DNA from: Rickettsiales bacterium
Lineage (GTDB): Bacteria; Pseudomonadota; Alphaproteobacteria; Rickettsiales; UBA1997
Assembly: GCA_005787525.1 (NCBI GenBank)
Contig: SYAR01000025.1
Span: forward strand, 1 to 32,170
Direction of reading: 5' to 3'
DNA length: 32,170 bases
The notes beneath the pieces were generated by a model. That model saw only the letters and a list, made by a program, of their open reading frames with translations, searched no databases and was not told the DNA's origin. Below are positions 2,609 to 21,140 of the stretch, piece by piece. Every line of letters starts with the position of its first letter. Within the stretch, counting starts at the first letter, position 1. The translations under genes and the position numbers were made by a program.

Positions 2609-5197
2609 TTATTTTTTAACTGATTTCAATCCGCACCAAACAAATTCGCTCGTGAATGGAAGCAATGGTGCCGAGGCTTCGCACATGGTTAGCAAAATCG
2701 TGTAAAGCACATCATAAGCGTTTTGTTTATCTTCATCAATTTCACTTTTCCAAAATCTTTGACGATTTCGACGAATATACCAATTATTCAAAACCTCAAA
2801 AAATTTGTTAAATTCATCGCAAGCTTGCACCGTATCATATTGTTGCATAGCCACGTCAATTGCGGTTACAGAGGATTTTAATTTTGCCAAAATATAGCGA
2901 TCAAGAATATTTTTAAAATCCTTTTTCTCATCGATGCGATTGGCGAAAATTCCATCGGCATTGGCGTAAAGACAAAAGAAATTATAAGCGTTAATAAGCG
3001 GTTTTATCGATAAACGTAAACTATCACGAATGGCTTTGCCTTCTTTGTCGATACGCAATTCTTGTCCACGCATGACAGGTTGCGAAATCATGTAAAAACG
3101 CATGGCGTCGGAGCCAATCGTTGAAAATATTTCCAACGGATCGGCGTAATTACGTAATCTTTTCGAAAGTTTTTGCGAATTTTCGTCTAAAATTGTGCCG
3201 TGGCAAATCACGTTTTTGAAGGGTGAGCGATCAAAAAGTGCGGTCGACAAAACCATTAAAGTATAAAACCAACCACGAGTTTGAGCGACATATTCGGTAA
3301 TAAAATCGGCGGGAAAATTATCTTCAAACCATTCTTTATTTTCAAATGGATAATGAATTTGGGCGTAAGGCATTGATCCACTTTCGAACCAGCAATCAAG
3401 CACGTCGGAAACGCGTCGAAATTCTTCGCCATCTTCAAAAAAAACAATTTCATCGATGAAAGGGCGATGCAAATTATCGATTTTTTTGCCCGAAATTTTT
3501 TCAAGTTCGGCGATCGATCCAAAGACTTTTAATTTGCCCGATTTACTTTTCCAAACTGGCACGGGACAGCCCCAGAAGCGGTTGCGCGTGATTGACCAAT
3601 CGCGGGCACCTTCAAGCCATTTACCAAATTGTCCGTCCTTAATATTGTTTGGAATCCAATTTATTTGTTGATTTAATTCAACCATGCGATCTTTAAAAGC
3701 GGTAACTTTAACATACCACGAACTCACGGCTTTGTAAATTAGCGGCGTGTCCGTACGCCAACAATGTGGATAATTATGGAGGATTTGTTCGGGATTGCCG
3801 AAGAGAATTTTATTTTCCTTAAGATATTTTATGATGTCATCATTAGTGTCGAAAACTTGGCGTCCATCAAGCTTCAAACCACCTTCTTTACTATCATCAT
3901 TAATGCGATAAACATTATTATTTTTGCCGACAAAACCAATTGCCGAATTAAATTTGCCACCTTCATCAACGGGGCAAATGGTTGGAATGCCATTGGCTTT
4001 GCAAAGCAATTGATCATCTTCACCAAAGCCGGGAGCGATGTGAACGATGCCAGTTCCTTCTTCGATTGAAACGAAATCGCCAGCCAAAATTGTGAAAACT
4101 TTGGCGGATTCATTTCTTAGCGAAACTACGTTCGCATCATTTTGAAAATTATTATTGTGAGGAAATAATTGTTTATAACCAAGTCCAATCAACTGATGAC
4201 CCATAACGCTTCCAAGCAGTTCATGTTCGCCAAAATCTTTGGCAAATTTTTCAACTAAATTTTTGGCTAAAATTAAAATTTCATGATCTTTTTTGATTAA
4301 AGCATATTCAATTTTTTCGCCAATTGCTAAAGCTAAATTCGAAGGCAAAGTCCATGGCGTTGTAGTCCAAGCGATTAATGCAATTTTGGTTTCAGATGTT
4401 GAAAATTTTTGTAAAAAACTCGGAATTTCTTGAAGATGAAATTTAACCTTCGCCGTCTTACTCGCCTTCTGCCTGTAGGCGTTATCCATGCGCGTTTCAA
4501 AATTTGAAAGCGGAGTTTGGCACGCCCAAGAATATGGAACAACGCGAAAATCTTCATAAAGTAAGCCCTTATTATGCAATTCTTTAAACGCCCACAAAAC
4601 CGATTCCATGTAGTTTAAATCCATGGTTTTGTAACTATTTTTAAAATCGACAAAACGCCCTTGACGCGTAACATAATTTTCCCAATCATCGGCATATTTC
4701 ATCACTGATTTTTGACAAGCATCATTGAATTTTTCAATGCCAAATTCTTGAATAGCAATTTGCCCCGAAATTGGCTTTCCTTCTCGCTTGGTAAGCTCTT
4801 TTTCGGTTTCCATTTCGACCGGCAAACCATGCGTATCCCAGCCAAAACGCCGTTCAACTTTTTTACCTTTCATGGTTTGATAACGCGCCACTAAATCTTT
4901 TATAAAGCCTGTAAGTAAATGTCCGTAGTGCGGAAGACCGTTAGCAAAAGGCGGGCCATCATAAAAAACAAATTCATTTTTTTCAATTTTTTCGTGACGA
5001 CAATTTTTGTGCTCTTTAAGTGAGCAAGGATTGACAACGGGCGAAGTGTTATCTTCGTCAAGTTCACTGGCAAAATTTCGCATTTCAACTGATTTTTCAA
5101 AGATTTTTTGCTCTTGCCAAAATTTTAAAATATCCTCTTCCATCTTAGCGAAATCAAGGTTCTGATTAGCGTCTGGGTAAAATTTTTTCTTTGTCAT
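2609..5197 (-). CDS. ileS: isoleucyl-tRNA synthetase (eukaryote-like type), C-terminally short
   Basis: Charges tRNA-Ile with isoleucine in the cytoplasm. Class I signatures are clear: GPPFANGLPHYGH at residues 81-93 (HIGH variant HYGH) and QKLSKR near residue 675 (KMSKR variant KLSKR). The CP1 editing domain is present, with WTTTPWTLPSN and GTGIVHIAPGFGEDD. Wording such as SVMKYADDWENYVTRQGRF and PYSWACQTPLSNFETR follows the Rickettsia enzyme, which belongs to the eukaryote-like group. Two oddities: about 30 extra residues (roughly 42-71) with C58, H63, C66 and H68 lie before the HIGH motif, and the protein stops at residue 862, just after APLLPFTSEFVW. Relatives are about 1,000-1,090 residues long and continue for some 200 residues. 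I found no continuation in other frames downstream. Diverges from hom. Confidence 0.96.
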   Translation of the reverse strand: MTKKKFYPDANQNLDFAKMEEDILKFWQEQKIFEKSVEMRNFASELDEDNTSPVVNPCSLKEHKNCRHEKIEKNEFVFYDGPPFANGLPHYGHLLTGFIKDLVARYQTMKGKKVERRFGWDTHGLPVEMETEKELTKREGKPISGQIAIQEFGIEKFNDACQKSVMKYADDWENYVTRQGRFVDFKNSYKTMDLNYMESVLWAFKELHNKGLLYEDFRVVPYSWACQTPLSNFETRMDNAYRQKASKTAKVKFHLQEIPSFLQKFSTSETKIALIAWTTTPWTLPSNLALAIGEKIEYALIKKDHEILILAKNLVEKFAKDFGEHELLGSVMGHQLIGLGYKQLFPHNNNFQNDANVVSLRNESAKVFTILAGDFVSIEEGTGIVHIAPGFGEDDQLLCKANGIPTICPVDEGGKFNSAIGFVGKNNNVYRINDDSKEGGLKLDGRQVFDTNDDIIKYLKENKILFGNPEQILHNYPHCWRTDTPLIYKAVSSWYVKVTAFKDRMVELNQQINWIPNNIKDGQFGKWLEGARDWSITRNRFWGCPVPVWKSKSGKLKVFGSIAELEKISGKKIDNLHRPFIDEIVFFEDGEEFRRVSDVLDCWFESGSMPYAQIHYPFENKEWFEDNFPADFITEYVAQTRGWFYTLMVLSTALFDRSPFKNVICHGTILDENSQKLSKRLRNYADPLEIFSTIGSDAMRFYMISQPVMRGQELRIDKEGKAIRDSLRLSIKPLINAYNFFCLYANADGIFANRIDEKKDFKNILDRYILAKLKSSVTAIDVAMQQYDTVQACDEFNKFFEVLNNWYIRRNRQRFWKSEIDEDKQNAYDVLYTILLTMCEASAPLLPFTSEFVWCGLKSVKK

Positions 5198-13471: not shown

Positions 13472-15610
13472 TCAAAACTCCATATTCAAACTAGCTTTTA
13501 AAGCACGAACAGAGCCGAATTGCAGATTGTTATTATTGTGAGCGGTGAGGAAATATTTTTTGTTAAAAATATTTTCAACATTAATTTGAGCGCGAATTTT
13601 TTCGTCAATTTTGTAAAATATTGCACCGTCGAAACGATTAAATCCTTTCAATTTTACTTTATTATCAACCGCTGAATATTGGCTTGATTGCTTGATAAAT
13701 CCGAGTCCGAAACTTAATGTTTGTGAAAATTTATATTTATTCCACAAGGCAATTTTGTTGCTCGGAGTGAGAGCCAATTTATTGCCTTTTTTGGCGTCGG
13801 CGGTGGTGCTAGAAATTTTGGCATCGAGATGAGAGTAGGACGCAACCACTTCAAATTTTTTACTAATTTCGCCCGTCGCCGAAGTTTCGAAGCCACGAAT
13901 TTTTGAACTTCCCGACAAAACAAAATATCCTGAACCGTTCGGGTCGTTAGCTCGACTATTAGTGCGATCTAATTGAAAAATTGCGGTGTTAAAATTAAGT
14001 TTGTCGGTTATGTCCCATTTGGTGCCGATTTCGTAATTTTGCAATTTCTCCGGTTTTAAAGATTTCGACTTGGCATCGAGTGCAGAAAATTGATCGCCCG
14101 CACTCGGTAAATAGCTGGTGCTGTAGCTTGAATAGATTGAAAGATTTTTTTGCGGTTTGAAAACTAAACCAACTTTTGGCGAAATAAAATTATCACGTCT
14201 TTTAAAATTTTGCCCAGTATTTTTATTTTCAAGCTTGATATCAAAACTGTCGAGGCGAAGGCCCGCTGTAAGCTCAAAATGCTCGTTAAAAGTGATTTGA
14301 TCTTGTAAATATGAACCCAAAACCGCCACAGTTGAGTTATTATTGGCATCGCTTGAAGCTCGACGATAATTGATTGGAGTTAAGTTTATGTCGTCGAAAA
14401 TTGAAATCCCTAAATTTAAGTCTTTGTTATTAAAATAGCCACTCAAGCGACTCGTCGACGAATCTTGATGAGAAATTTCGGTGCCAAATAACGCCAAATG
14501 TTTAAGCGAAAAAGCTTCAAATTTTTTAGTAAGATCGGTTTGGTTGGTGAAATTTTTGCGCTTTTGCGAATTGTTGTAAGCCGAGAGATTAAACTTATCG
14601 TTGGCGCCAACTTCGCCACTCGCATAAACATTTTTATAAAATTTTGAATATTGCGTAAAGCGCGTGTAATTTTTTAATTGCAATTGATTTGGAAATTCGT
14701 GATTGACGGTGGCAAAAACTGAATCCAATTTATTTTCCGAATCATTTTCGTTGGGATTTCCAAAAAATTTTGAAGCCGAACTTTTGAGAGGTTCGCCATT
14801 CTTCGAAGGGACGCCACGATCGTTAAAGCGATTATCGTAAAAATGTTCATAACCAAATTTAATGTCGGTATTTTTGCCAAGAATAATTGTGCCCGTTGGG
14901 TTGAAGCCAAAACGTTCTAAATTGCCATAATCGCGAAAAGTTTGTGATTTTTCATAAAAACCGTTGAAGCGAAGCGACAATTTGTCATTAATTTTTTCGC
15001 TTAAATCGGTTTGTAAACGGCGATTTTCAAAGGATCCGCCGGATAAAATAATTTGACGTTTTTTTATACCATCGGCAAATTTAGGAACTCGATTGACCAA
15101 GCCTCCAGCCCCACCTCGACCGAAAGCCAAGGCATTGGGACCATTCAAAAATTCAACTTTTTCAATGTTATAAAAATCACGAAAATATTGCATATCGTCA
15201 CGAGCGCCATCGATAAAAAAATCAGCGGTGGAGCTGTTGCCACGAATTGAAATTTGGTCGCGATTTCCTTCGCCTTGTTGAATGTTAACACTCGGAATAT
15301 AAAGCGTCGCTTGCTCCATATTCACAATATTTTGATCGCGAATTTGTTGTTGCGAAACTATATTAATTGTTTGCGGAATGTCACGTAAAATTTTATTGGT
15401 GCGAGTTGAACTGGATTGACTTTCAGCCTTATAGCCATCTTGATTTTCACTGGTGGCGGTGATGGTGATTTTGGGTAAAATATTTTTTTCGAAATTATTT
15501 TTTAAAATTTCGGGTGAGGGTGATTTTTTTGCCAAAATTTCACCGCAAAAAAAACTAAAAATAATTTGTAAAATCAAAAAATTTCTCGAAAAAAAATTTA
15601 AAAAAAACAT
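13472..15610 (-). CDS. TonB-dependent siderophore receptor
   Basis: An outer-membrane gated channel for ferric siderophores, powered by TonB-ExbB-ExbD. The 712 residues comprise a signal peptide (about 1-27, hydrophobic FLILQIIFSFF, cleavage near ILAKK), a TonB box-like PKITITA at 46-52, a plug domain at about 70-180 (ILRDIPQTINIVSQQQIRDQ, SIRGNSSTADFFIDG, RDDMQYFRDFYNIEKVEFLN, GRGGAGGLVN), and a 22-strand barrel ending in Phe (ASLNMEF), the signal for outer-membrane assembly. The plug wording fits the FhuA/FhuE/Fiu family for hydroxamate or catecholate siderophores. A Fur-box match lies 121 bases upstream, so iron repression is likely. tonB, exbBD and siderophore permease genes are not in the window; the ABC ATPase at 17915 is of a peptide type. 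Confidence 0.93.
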   Translation of the reverse strand: MFFLNFFSRNFLILQIIFSFFCGEILAKKSPSPEILKNNFEKNILPKITITATSENQDGYKAESQSSSTRTNKILRDIPQTINIVSQQQIRDQNIVNMEQATLYIPSVNIQQGEGNRDQISIRGNSSTADFFIDGARDDMQYFRDFYNIEKVEFLNGPNALAFGRGGAGGLVNRVPKFADGIKKRQIILSGGSFENRRLQTDLSEKINDKLSLRFNGFYEKSQTFRDYGNLERFGFNPTGTIILGKNTDIKFGYEHFYDNRFNDRGVPSKNGEPLKSSASKFFGNPNENDSENKLDSVFATVNHEFPNQLQLKNYTRFTQYSKFYKNVYASGEVGANDKFNLSAYNNSQKRKNFTNQTDLTKKFEAFSLKHLALFGTEISHQDSSTSRLSGYFNNKDLNLGISIFDDINLTPINYRRASSDANNNSTVAVLGSYLQDQITFNEHFELTAGLRLDSFDIKLENKNTGQNFKRRDNFISPKVGLVFKPQKNLSIYSSYSTSYLPSAGDQFSALDAKSKSLKPEKLQNYEIGTKWDITDKLNFNTAIFQLDRTNSRANDPNGSGYFVLSGSSKIRGFETSATGEISKKFEVVASYSHLDAKISSTTADAKKGNKLALTPSNKIALWNKYKFSQTLSFGLGFIKQSSQYSAVDNKVKLKGFNRFDGAIFYKIDEKIRAQINVENIFNKKYFLTAHNNNNLQFGSVRALKASLNMEF

Positions 15611-15731
15611 GAAAATTATAAAAAAATTGAAATAAAAATTGCAGAATTTATAAATTTATATTTTTGATTTGAAAAATACGAAACCTTTAAAATATTGGCT
15701 TCATGAGGCAAAAAAATAATTCAAAATTGGC

Positions 15732-15750
15732 AATAACGATTATCATTTTG
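15732..15750 (-). promoter_or_regulatory. Fur box upstream of the siderophore receptor
   Basis: The 19 bases AATAACGATTATCATTTTG match the classic Fur consensus GATAATGATAATCATTATC at 14 of 19 positions. The inner core CGATTATCATT keeps the dyad. It sits in the 165-base gap before the TonB-dependent receptor, 121 bases from its ATG, and just after the stop of the upstream unit. Its place in front of a siderophore receptor is exactly where Fur repression is expected. The -10 and -35 elements cannot be identified confidently in this AT-rich sequence, and no fur gene is in the window. Confidence 0.65.
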
Positions 15751-15751
15751 C

Positions 15752-15780
15752 AATAATATTTTAAAAATGCAAATATTATT
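15752..15780. repeat. 10-base perfect inverted repeat at the end of the DUF2237 gene
   Basis: Arms AATAATATTT (15752-15761) and AAATATTATT (15771-15780) pair perfectly around a 9-base loop. The structure includes the stop codon of the DUF2237 gene and lies next to the Fur box. On the minus strand it is not followed by a T run, and its stem is all A and T, so it would make a weak intrinsic terminator. It may instead be an operator or a chance feature. Confidence 0.35.
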
Positions 15781-16264
15781 TTTTCGGAAGAATTTGATAT
15801 TTTTTTAAAGTTTTTAAATCAATATAATCCAAAGTTTTTGAGTTGGTTGATTCTAATTTTATTTGGGGAGCGACGCCTGCTTCGTGAGCTTCGAGCCAAC
15901 GCAAAGCACAAAGGCACCAAAAATCTCCTGCCTTTAAGCCCTTGAAATTGTAGTGCGGAGCTGGAGTTATCAAATCATTACCTCTTGATAAGGTGAATTG
16001 CAAAAACTCTTCGGTGATTTGAGCACAAACAACGTGAGTGCCAACATCTTGAATATTGGTGTGGCAAAAACCGTCGCGAAAATAACCGGTGACGGGGTCG
16101 AGACAGCATGATTCGAGTTTGGTGCCAAGTACATTTTGAGCATTTTCTTTGAAATTTTTATTTGGAATTTTTGTCATATTTTCGAGCGCATTTGAGTTAT
16201 TTGAAAATAAAATTATCAATAAAATATTGAAAAAAATTATTTGTTGAATTTTTTTTAATGTCAT
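15776..16264 (-). CDS. DUF2237 family protein with a signal peptide
   Basis: Residues about 45-160 are a DUF2237 domain: NVLGTKLESCCLDPVTGYFRDGFC, DVGTHVVCAQITEEFL, FKGLKAGDFWCLCALRWLEAHEAG. The shared cysteines (C53, C54, C67 and the CLC pair) are kept; the biochemical role of the family is unknown. What is unusual is the N-terminus: KKIQQIIFFNILLIILFSNNSNA is a typical signal peptide with a cleavage site after SNA, so the protein would be periplasmic, whereas relatives I know of are about 120 residues and cytoplasmic. A later start at Met30 would remove it, but the ATG at 16264-16262 overlaps the TGA of the DUF2256 gene (ATGA), which supports the long form. Third gene of the photolyase unit. 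Confidence 0.85.
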   Translation of the reverse strand: MTLKKIQQIIFFNILLIILFSNNSNALENMTKIPNKNFKENAQNVLGTKLESCCLDPVTGYFRDGFCHTNIQDVGTHVVCAQITEEFLQFTLSRGNDLITPAPHYNFKGLKAGDFWCLCALRWLEAHEAGVAPQIKLESTNSKTLDYIDLKTLKKYQILPKK

Positions 16265-16398
16265 TTTTTTATTTTTTTACATTTTTCTGAACAAAATTTA
16301 ACATTGTCCCAAACTTTCTCCCACTTCTTTCGCCACGCAAAAGGTCTTTGGCATTTTTGGCAAATTTTTTGCGGTAAATTAAGTTTTTTATGAGCCAT
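16261..16398 (-). CDS. DUF2256 family zinc-ribbon small protein
   Basis: A 45-residue gene that begins at ATG 16398-16396, only two bases after the photolyase stop, and ends with a TGA that overlaps the start of the DUF2237 gene. The product contains KICQKCQRPFAWRKKWEKVW followed by DNVKFCSEKC. The two C-x2-C/C-x3-C pairs around the W-R-K-K-W core are the hallmark of DUF2256, a tiny zinc-ribbon-like family that, as I recall, is often found next to photolyase/cryptochrome genes. It is highly basic and could bind nucleic acid or partner protein; its function is unknown. The tight spacing on both sides makes cotranscription and coupled translation very likely. Confidence 0.9.
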   Translation of the reverse strand: MAHKKLNLPQKICQKCQRPFAWRKKWEKVWDNVKFCSEKCKKIKK

Positions 16399-16400
16399 TT

Positions 16401-17849
16401 TTAAGTTAATTTATCTTCGTCGCTAATTTTTGGAAGTGCCTTAAAAGTGCTTAGTGCCAAGTCTCGCGACTCATCAATTTTTACAATCGGATGCGGATAA
16501 TTTTTGCCTAATTTAATTCCTGAATTTTGTAAAATTTCTGTCGAAGCTTCCCACGGTTTGTATAAAAATTTTGCTGGTAAATTTTTTAATTCGGGCACAA
16601 ATTTTCGCGTATATTCGCCCTCGGGATCGAATTTTTCGCCTTGTAGAATCGGATTAAAAATGCGGAAATATGGCGCCGCGTCGGCTCCGCTTCCAGCCAC
16701 CCATTGCCAACTCGCCGAGTTGCTCGCTAAATCGGCATCGACCAAACAATCCCAAAACCATTTTTCACCCAAACGCCAATCGAGCAATAAATTTTTTACT
16801 AAAAATGAACCGACGATCATGCGCACGCGATTATGCATTTGACCAGTTTGCCACAACTCTCGCATGCCGGCGTCAACTATCGGATAACCGGTTTGCCCTT
16901 TACGCCAAGCCTTTAAAAAATTTTCATTTTTTTGCCATAAAAAATTATCAAAACGTGGTTGAAAATTTTTGTCGGGCAAATGCGGAAAATGAAAAAGTAA
17001 ATAATATGAAAATTCACGCCAGCCGAGCTCGCTTAAAAAATGATCGAGATTTAATTCGCCGGTTTTTTCACGATAATTTTCTTGAGAAAAATGCCAAATT
17101 TGATGCGGAGAAATTTCGCCAAAATGTAAGTGCGGAGATAGGCGAGAGACATTATTTTGCGACGGAAAATTGCGTCCATCTTTGTAATTTTTTAAATTAT
17201 TTTTGACAAAATTTTGCATTTTTTTGTAAGCAAAATCTTCGCCAATTTGCCAATAATTTTTCATCTCTTGATCCCATTTTATTGTCGGCAAAAGTGGCAA
17301 ATTTTTTAATTTAATTTTGTTATTTTCGTCGTAAAAAATTTTAAAATTTTCAGGTTTTTTTAAAGGTTTTCGTGGTGCAGTTTTTTGCAAGCAACCTTTG
17401 CGGTAGTAAGGCGTAAAGACTTTATAAGGCGTTTGATCGCTTTTCAAAACTTCATGCGGTTCCCACAAAAGCGAGGCGTTAAAACTTTGGGCAATAATAT
17501 TTTTTTGTTTAAAAAATGATTTTATTTCACGATCTTTTTCGATTCGCAGAGGTTCATAACAGCGATTCCAAAAAATTCCCGAAATTTCAAATTTCTCAAC
17601 TAAATTTTTTAAAATTTCTTTGGATTCTCCGCAATAAAAATTTAATTTATTATCGAGAGATTTATTTAAAGAATCTAAGCTGTGATGAAGCCACCATTTG
17701 CTCGCTGAGCCAATTTTCCTATTTTCGCCAATTTGTTCTTCAAAAATATAAATCGGCATGACGATGCCATTTTCAATCGCCGAGAGCAAGGCGGGATTGT
17801 CGCTAATTCGCAAATCTTGACGAAACCACATAATAAATTTTTTAGACAT
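16401..17849 (-). CDS. phr: deoxyribodipyrimidine photo-lyase (class I CPD photolyase)
   Basis: Uses blue/near-UV light and FADH- to split cyclobutane pyrimidine dimers in DNA. 482 residues, the usual length. The N-terminal antenna domain starts KKFIMWFRQDLRISDNPAL. The FAD-binding helical domain has HLHFGEISP near residue 240, GWREFSYYLLFHFP, GQTGYPIVDAGMRELWQTG, MHNRVRMIVGSFLVKNLL, and around residues 360-400 WFWDCLVDADLASN, WQWVAGSGADAAPYFRIFNP, including the tryptophans of the electron-transfer chain. Asn in DADLASN fits a photolyase rather than a plant-type cryptochrome. It leads a minus-strand unit with DUF2256 and DUF2237 and is divergent from the ABC ATPase gene, 65 bases away. A photolyase implies exposure to sunlight. 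Confidence 0.95.
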   Translation of the reverse strand: MSKKFIMWFRQDLRISDNPALLSAIENGIVMPIYIFEEQIGENRKIGSASKWWLHHSLDSLNKSLDNKLNFYCGESKEILKNLVEKFEISGIFWNRCYEPLRIEKDREIKSFFKQKNIIAQSFNASLLWEPHEVLKSDQTPYKVFTPYYRKGCLQKTAPRKPLKKPENFKIFYDENNKIKLKNLPLLPTIKWDQEMKNYWQIGEDFAYKKMQNFVKNNLKNYKDGRNFPSQNNVSRLSPHLHFGEISPHQIWHFSQENYREKTGELNLDHFLSELGWREFSYYLLFHFPHLPDKNFQPRFDNFLWQKNENFLKAWRKGQTGYPIVDAGMRELWQTGQMHNRVRMIVGSFLVKNLLLDWRLGEKWFWDCLVDADLASNSASWQWVAGSGADAAPYFRIFNPILQGEKFDPEGEYTRKFVPELKNLPAKFLYKPWEASTEILQNSGIKLGKNYPHPIVKIDESRDLALSTFKALPKISDEDKLT

Positions 17850-19717: not shown

Positions 19718-20383
19718 TTATTTTTTGTTTTTATTTTTTTTCGCAGAATTTTCTGAATTTTTAACAATTTTTTTAAACAATTTTACCGAAATTTTTTCAT
19801 TATTTTTTATGATTTCTGGAGAAATTTTTTCATCATATTCGGGTAAATAATTGGCGTAATAAAAATCAGCATTTGAGTTTGACTGGATTGATTGCTCCTC
19901 ATTTTTAGCGCTTAAAATTTCAGCTTTTTTTGAGCTAAAAATTAAATAATTTTTTTCGATTAAAACATTAATTTCTTCGGGTTTGATTCCCAAAAATTTT
20001 AATTCAAAATTATGTGATTTTTCATCTTCAAAATGTTGAAGAGAAGCTTGAATTTTTGATGAATTAGAATTTTCTAAAATTTTATTATTTTCTTCAAATG
20101 CTTGTCGCATCATTTTGCGGTGAGTCTTGAAGGCTCTTTCCATTCTTTTATGCATTTCATCAAAATCGGCAAAAAAATCTGCTTCAAAATCTTCGTCAAA
20201 ATCATGAAAAAAACGAGAGTGATATCTTTTTTTATAAGGGTTTTGATCATGATTCTGTTGGCATGAATAGGTTAAGAGCGAACCGATGATTAAAAAAATT
20301 GAAGCAAAAGTAATTTTTGATGAAATGATTTTTTTGAAGGCTTTTTTGATAACAAAGCTTTTATTGTCGTTGAGTTTTTGCAT
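19718..20383 (-). CDS. membrane-anchored Hsp20-like (alpha-crystallin domain) protein
   Basis: 221 residues. A basic N-terminus (VIKKAFKKIISSK) precedes one membrane helix at about 24-40; C41 follows LLTYS and could be a poor lipoprotein site. Residues 53-77 are rich in Phe, Asp and His (RFFHDFDEDFEADFF), then an amphipathic helix (DEMHKRMERAFKTHRKMMRQAF). Residues about 122-205 resemble an alpha-crystallin domain: FELKFLGIKPEEINVLIEKN, YLIFSSKK, then a gap and YANYLPEYDEKISPEIIKNN followed by KISVKLFKK, matching the beta-strand pattern of small heat-shock proteins (holdases). The orientation would put this domain in the periplasm. The C-terminus is Lys/Asn-rich. Divergent from queE. Identification rests on pattern only; an unrelated beta-sandwich is possible. 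Confidence 0.6.
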   Translation of the reverse strand: MQKLNDNKSFVIKKAFKKIISSKITFASIFLIIGSLLTYSCQQNHDQNPYKKRYHSRFFHDFDEDFEADFFADFDEMHKRMERAFKTHRKMMRQAFEENNKILENSNSSKIQASLQHFEDEKSHNFELKFLGIKPEEINVLIEKNYLIFSSKKAEILSAKNEEQSIQSNSNADFYYANYLPEYDEKISPEIIKNNEKISVKLFKKIVKNSENSAKKNKNKK

Positions 20384-20459
20384 AATTAAAAAAATTTTGT
20401 TGATGATTTTTTGTAATAATTTATCATTTAGTTTGCAAAAAAAATATTTTCAAGAGTCT

Positions 20460-21140
20460 ATGTTTGGTAAAAATAAAATTTTAAAAATTGAGCAACATGC
20501 CGGCGATTTTTTGGATGTTCAAGAAATATTCCCAACCCTTCAGGGCGAAGGACCTTTCGTCGGGCAAGGGGCGATATTTATTCGCCTTGGCGGTTGCAAT
20601 TTAAAATGTAATTTTTGCGATACCGAATTTGATAGTTTTAAAAATTTTTCTTTAACCGAAATTTTACAAAAAGTTGTTGAACTCGCCAAAAATTCTCAAC
20701 AAAAAATTGTTCGAAAATTAGTGGTTATCACAGGCGGAGAGCCGATGCGTCAACCGATTGAAAAACTTTGTAAAGAATTAATTTTATTAAATTTTTTAGT
20801 GCAAATCGAAACTAACGGCACCATATTTCGAGAACTTTCACCTCAAGTTAAAATTATTTGTTCACCCAAAATTTCCAATCATAAATATCATATTTTACGT
20901 CCCGATATTTTGTCAAAAATTGATGCTTTAAAATTTATAATTTCGGCAAGTAATGAAGATTATTCTGGGGTCGGCGAAGTAGGGCAGTCTGGTCGCCAAG
21001 ATATTGCGATTTATGTTCAGCCGATGGATGAATATAATGAAATAAAGAATAAAGAAAATTTACAAAAATGTTTGGATCTTTGCGAAGAAAACGGCTATTT
21101 TCTTTCGCTTCAAACACATAAAGTTATTGGATTAAAATAA
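20460..21140 (+). CDS. queE: 7-carboxy-7-deazaguanine synthase (radical SAM)
   Basis: Makes 7-carboxy-7-deazaguanine from carboxy-tetrahydropterin in the queuosine tRNA-modification pathway. From the chosen start (ATG 20460-20462) it has 226 residues, close to the family length. EIFPTLQGEGPFVGQGAIFI is the QueE signature. CNLKCNFC gives the CX3CX2C motif at C46, C50 and C53 for the 4Fe-4S cluster, and VVITGGEP at 88-95 is the SAM-binding GGE motif. An earlier in-frame ATG at 20286 would add 58 hydrophobic residues and overlap the divergent Hsp20-like gene by almost 100 bases, so I reject it. An AAGAG element precedes the chosen ATG. Other queuosine genes are not in the window. Confidence 0.93.
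   Translation: MFGKNKILKIEQHAGDFLDVQEIFPTLQGEGPFVGQGAIFIRLGGCNLKCNFCDTEFDSFKNFSLTEILQKVVELAKNSQQKIVRKLVVITGGEPMRQPIEKLCKELILLNFLVQIETNGTIFRELSPQVKIICSPKISNHKYHILRPDILSKIDALKFIISASNEDYSGVGEVGQSGRQDIAIYVQPMDEYNEIKNKENLQKCLDLCEENGYFLSLQTHKVIGLK

Follow-up and report, generated by a model that had tools for sequence, protein, structure and literature searches.

A DUF2237 protein with a predicted export leader in a Rickettsiales bacterium, and the stress genes that accompany it

The DUF2237 protein encoded in a Rickettsiales metagenomic contig carries an N-terminal hydrophobic leader that, judged by comparison with its relatives, looks like genuine coding sequence. We propose, giving the idea about an even chance of being right, that the product is a Sec-exported, cysteine-rich stress protein that would act beside a periplasmic glutathione peroxidase (GPx). 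The gene lies in a 32,170-nucleotide stretch of DNA (hereafter, the window; GenBank contig SYAR01000025.1), where it stands third, after photolyase and DUF2256, in a run of genes on one strand (Table 1). Its family assignment, made earlier in a sequence-only reading of the window, is confirmed by a match to Pfam PF09996 (E 3e-53, 179.1 bits against a cut-off of 25), which spans residues 43-156 of the protein and nearly the whole profile (1-114 of 115). NCBIfam gave no family match for either the DUF2237 or the DUF2256 protein. The start codon proposed in the same reading is likewise backed by a 4-nt overlap (ATGA) with the stop codon of the DUF2256 gene.

Table 1. Features of the DUF2237 gene and its upstream neighbours, in window coordinates
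Feature	Position	Strand	Basis
DUF2237 protein with leader, 162 aa	15776..16264	-	ATG start; Pfam match; same-genus comparison
Leader codons 1-29 (putative signal peptide, about residues 1-26, then LEN)	16178..16264	-	Third-position differences, shuffles, leader rule, ATGA overlap
Met30, second in-frame ATG, possible alternative start	16175..16177	-	Present in all five same-genus members
DUF2237 domain with Cys53, Cys67, Cys80, Cys117, Cys119	15797..16138	-	Pfam and conserved positions
DUF2256 protein, 45 aa, Cys-rich	16261..16398	-	Stop overlaps the DUF2237 ATG
DNA photolyase, first gene of the run	16401..17849	-	PF03441, PF00875

The leader and its reading frame

The leader reads MTLKKIQQIIFFNILLIILFSNNSNA, followed by LEN. 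It has the traits of a Sec signal peptide, namely a basic n-region, a hydrophobic core (by the rule given below), and suitable residues at -3 and -1 (by eye). The basic N-terminus and the SNA site of the sequence-only reading are both present, as Lys4 and Lys5 and as a Ser-Asn-Ala in front of the probable cleavage site. The core is there too, roughly from Ile9 to Ser21, but it is 12-13 residues long with one Asn inside, not the 14 residues claimed. Signal peptidase cleavage follows the -3/-1 rule, and the cleavage point was placed by eye on that basis.

Ten genomes of the same genus, including the one under study, were compared. Photolyase is present in all ten, and DUF2237 in five, with DUF2256 adjacent in exactly the same five. 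All five DUF2237 members carry the hydrophobic leader in frame, the four relatives that have the gene among them, which runs against the refuting outcome named in the sequence-only reading, that close homologues all begin at Met30. Differences in the leader between the window and genome G009 fall on the first, second and third codon positions as 6, 2 and 13, with an additional in-frame indel of 9 nt, and those between the window and G004 as 0, 0 and 3. The excess at third positions (16 of 24) has a binomial probability of 9e-4 for the two pairs together, which are not fully independent, and of 7e-3 for G009 alone (13 of 21). At the amino acid level the leader appears to be loosely constrained, since 10 of its codons differ from G009 with and 7 without a change of residue, against 13 and 39 in the rest of the protein. 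When codons 2-29 were shuffled 5000 times with dinucleotides preserved, 807 of the shuffled sequences stayed open, and just 4 were both open and as hydrophobic as the real leader, whose best 10-mer has a mean Kyte-Doolittle value of 3.22.

Placement of the long start is also regular. In five genomes it shares exactly 4 nt with the stop of the gene ahead of it, which is DUF2256 (G000, G004), a DCC1-like gene (G045) or DUF423 (G229, G172). In G009 the start abuts the upstream stop, and in G071 and G001 it overlaps it by 13 and 17 nt, respectively; in G331, which completes the nine Rickettsiales leaders called by the rule below, there is only a 61-codon open frame upstream, ending 53 nt away. In-frame conservation, third-position differences and start placement together argue that the leader is real coding sequence. 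This bears on the idea that the leader is an untranslated spacer and the protein begins at Met30, remaining cytosolic like most of the family. The loose constraint on the leader's amino acids would suit such a spacer, as would the lack of a leader, by our rule, in 116 of 130 DUF2237 frames. A spacer, however, would hardly be expected to show third-position bias and an in-frame indel, ATGA overlaps with three kinds of upstream gene, a degree of hydrophobicity so seldom reached by shuffling, and, in genome G013, a counterpart in which the DUF2237 domain is fused to a GPx. We consider the spacer very improbable. Of the earlier proposal that DUF2237 is exported, then, the leader is well supported by comparison, and export itself is what we infer from it.

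In genome G006 the leader takes another form: DUF2256, the hydrophobic segment and DUF2237 make up a single frame of 212 aa (L085 4430-5068). The segment is internal there and cannot serve as a free N-terminal signal peptide, which favours an alternative in which it is an uncleaved anchor that fixes a periplasmic DUF2237 domain to the inner membrane, close to DUF2256 in the cytosol. Against this, the same-genus leaders outside G006, that of the window included, are short in the core and by eye fit the -3/-1 pattern with small or allowed residues (SNA, SYA, IHA). The G006 frame, moreover, comes from one metagenome-assembled genome, and is either a real cross-membrane fusion or a slip of sequencing or assembly. 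We regard an anchor as rather unlikely, and prefer a cleaved signal peptide.

Distribution of leaders in the family

We called a leader when a frame had a start codon, a 10-mer with mean Kyte-Doolittle hydropathy of at least 2.2 within its first 22 residues, and 16-75 residues ahead of the domain. None of 32 cytosolic control frames was called (photolyases 9 and 5, DPRP 7, DCC1-like 11). Positive controls were called in 28 of 38 cases for GPx (frames from the 30 best-scoring loci of the order and from DUF2237 neighbours) and in 3 of 7 for TonB receptors, which indicates that the rule misses real leaders; it is also silent on cleavage.

Among 130 distinct closed DUF2237 frames the rule called 14 leaders: nine in Rickettsiales, three in Saprospiraceae (L149, L151, L176), one in bin.35 (L116), and one in L133, which is titled Proteobacteria and groups with Bacteriovoracaceae. 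Four more were added by eye to give 18 leader-bearing rows. These are the G006 fusion, the G013 GPx fusion and the Bacteriovoracaceae loci L139 and L154 (rows L004, L009, L139 and L154; two fusions, one long N-terminus and one GTG start, none of them called by the rule). Within the order, 11 of the 25 DUF2237-positive genomes have a leader-bearing copy (nine by rule and two fusions), and one of them, G172, has a plain copy as well. Sampling of the family was not random, as the named loci are the best 80 of at least 588 matches. At the level of the class, where 53 genomes outside our own matched and 30 loci were fetched, one of them the window, no leader was called in the 29 loci examined, a count that covers the matches with a locus. 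A hydrophobic stretch upstream of DUF2237 in G059 was considered as a further leader and left uncounted, as it coincides with a DUF423-like frame.

A tree of 131 DUF2237 domains, 18 leader-bearing and 113 plain, was built without four short frames, which came from two distinct genes represented twice each. The leader label requires 11 changes on this tree (10-11 in bootstrap replicates), though well-supported branches force just 3 of them, many forks being unresolved. Leaders thus appear to have been gained, or lost, several times. Their presence in other families of Rickettsiales, in Saprospiraceae (Bacteroidota) and in Bacteriovoracaceae (Bdellovibrionota; leaders mostly seen by eye) suggests that an exported form recurs within the family. 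According to the sequence-only reading, export would be a new location for the family; the leader stands, and its uniqueness does not, with leaders recurring in distant lineages. Export of DUF2237 is not described in the available text of the literature that we found on the family. Separately, G050 has two different DUF2237 genes adjoining each other (L101 6828-7641), one of them with a long branch in the tree. G009 has a second, partial DUF2237 gene (L109 1-201), which shares 98% identity with the window protein and is followed by a TonB receptor; this is perhaps a sign of strain mixture in the assembly.

A second in-frame ATG lies between leader and domain in all 14 called leaders, as compared to 13 of 28 leader-bearing GPx (Fisher 5e-4, kinship ignored), and Met30 is kept in every same-genus member. 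Both starts might be used, the long product being exported and the short one staying in the cytosol, so that one gene would serve two locations. The inner ATG may, on the other hand, be no more than the ancestral start, which stayed in place as leaders arose in front of it. A GGAG or GAGG was seen by eye ahead of the inner ATG in 2 of 16 loci (L089, L091), and an AAGG in L133, a count that says little, for most of the long starts also have no GGAG- or GAGG-like site. We think dual use of the starts improbable.

Gene company and known light-stress systems

We surveyed 343 genomes of the order, 25 with DUF2237 and 318 without. Photolyase (PF03441) is found in all 25 positive genomes and in 133 of the 318 negative ones (Fisher 1e-9), and GPx over the cut-off in 21 and 67, respectively (Fisher 3e-10), kinship being ignored in both tests. 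DUF2256 occurs in 20 of 25 against 28 of 318, with matches that are broken or in pieces in G059, G065 and G229. As DUF2237 goes with photolyase, GPx and DUF2256 alike, its co-occurrence with photolyase requires no physical partnership, and the link probably reflects a shared set of stress genes. The sequence-only reading had found an exported domain odd as the partner of a DNA repair enzyme. With GPx that themselves bear leaders in the same company, this puzzle mostly dissolves, and what stands is the co-occurrence.

In G013, leader, GPx and DUF2237 form a single chain of 324 aa (L088 4001-5011) with DUF2237 as its C-terminal half. Like the G006 frame, this fusion is known from a single genome, and many of the genomes are metagenome-assembled. 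In four genomes (G017, G027, G032, G172) a 4-nt overlap joins the GPx gene to the start of DUF2237, and in G065 GPx is one gene away. The DUF2237 proteins next to GPx in those four genomes have no leader, which indicates that a periplasmic partnership with GPx is not general. In the genome of the window GPx is on another contig (C55), and G004, which has leader and DUF2237, gave no GPx match. Elsewhere such surroundings are rare: among the best 80 of at least 588 loci, the fetched flanks contain a photolyase-type gene in 5 cases, four of them from the order of the window, and GPx in one, a flavobacterium.

The surroundings of DUF2237 in G229 and G059 contain photolyases and DCC1-like, DUF423, glyoxalase-like and SOUL genes. 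An island resembling a light-stress gene set was noted in a genome of the order (L093 37-8354), where two photolyases, a DPRP-type photolyase, DCC1-like, DUF423, a leader-bearing DUF2237, glyoxalase-like and SOUL genes stand in a row. In the Bacteriovoracaceae locus L154, a DUF2256-DUF3253 fusion (4569-4961) lies near the leader-bearing DUF2237, which brings DUF2256 and DUF2237 into proximity in a second phylum.

Among exported light-stress proteins, the closest precedent is PgpD of Shewanella. The available text of PMC4336711 describes it as a periplasmic GPx, localized by PhoA fusion and with measured peroxidase activity, whose gene belongs to one RpoE2 regulon together with photolyase genes. 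The likeness lies in an exported stress protein within a gene set that includes photolyases, leaders being common in the GPx of our sample as well. The difference is that PgpD is a GPx of measured activity, whereas the window protein belongs to DUF2237. In Rhodobacter capsulatus, according to the available text of PMC7074977, the rpoE-chrR locus is accompanied by a singlet-oxygen-induced operon of the GPx BsaA1, CryB and two hypothetical proteins; there, too, GPx and a photolyase relative come together in a light-stress operon. A search for the anti-sigma factor ChrR gave no match in the 47 genomes of the family to which the window belongs, including its own, which is 85% complete, and was positive in the Caulobacter control; for this reason we do not claim membership in an RpoE-ChrR singlet-oxygen regulon. 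Rhodopsin gave no match in the 47 family genomes, but none in the control genomes either.

For the DUF2237 family itself, which is widespread and strongly conserved, the available text of PMC5932025 reports enrichment in light-using microbes, that is, rhodopsin- and photosystem-bearing prokaryotes, and reduced phototaxis upon knockout of Synechocystis slr1628. According to excerpts of PMC12727749, 19 genes of Synechococcus elongatus respond with increased levels to heavy metals as well as to produced water, and a DUF2237 gene ranks among the top 6 of them; those of PMC3877281 mention a DUF2237 paralogue, unk14, in the chromatic-acclimation island of some Synechococcus.

Cysteines, fold and a possible role

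The window protein has all conserved cysteines of the domain. Across the 18 leader-bearing rows Cys53, Cys67 and Cys117 are kept in every one, Cys119 in 17 and Cys80 in 16. Seven or more cysteines are found in 2 of these 18 rows and in 54 of the 113 plain ones, mostly through position 66, where cysteine occurs in none of the former and in 45 of the latter; kinship may explain the difference, and we draw no conclusion from it. A structure model of the window protein, based on 18 sequences, has a mean pLDDT of 79, with residues 27-34 and 61-73 poorly modelled. Its only significant matches in PDB are three DUF2237 entries (3ush, 4ioh and 2lq3; E 2e-12 to 6e-10), whose titles give no function. The window protein shares the full-length domain with these solved members and with Synechocystis slr1628, as well as the same conserved Cys, His, Arg and Trp residues. 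It differs in its N-terminal leader, the domain of the solved members beginning 2-4 residues from the chain start.

The following mechanism may be suggested. The leader would take the cysteine-rich domain into the periplasm via Sec, and would probably be cleaved after Ala26. Photolyase, DUF2256, leader-bearing GPx and DUF2237 would make up a gene set for light and oxidative stress, as their association suggests. DUF2237 would most likely act alongside GPx in the envelope by means of its conserved cysteines: it would be a thiol or redox partner of that enzyme, or else trap a reactive or metal species that arises under stress. Since the domain is found without a leader in most lineages and with one in others, with conserved residues kept, its substrate would be neither DNA nor photolyase but something small and diffusible that occurs on either side of the membrane; repeated leaders and retained cysteines argue for such a target. 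More broadly, and with clearly less than an even chance, DUF2237 could be a light- and peroxide-stress domain indifferent to its location, a partner of GPx that was moved to the periplasm several times by gain of a leader or by fusion to an exported GPx. If correct, a family formerly tied to phototrophy would for the first time have a defined role, and the GPx fusion of G013 names a partner to assay, which makes the family testable.

Some minor observations concern the neighbourhood. A TonB-dependent siderophore receptor follows DUF2237 on the same strand (window 13472-15610, -), as it does in G001, G006 and G009; the G004 contig stops short of it. A Fur box ahead of this receptor was sought with the 19-base consensus, and is not claimed, as there was no match with up to 3 mismatches in the window; a Fur-like stretch at about 15730-15752 departs from this consensus by more than 3 mismatches. 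Elsewhere in the window, the longest reading of the frame at 20286-21140 (+) overlaps the 5' end of a divergent ORF (19718-20383, -), and its listed start may for this reason be too far upstream.
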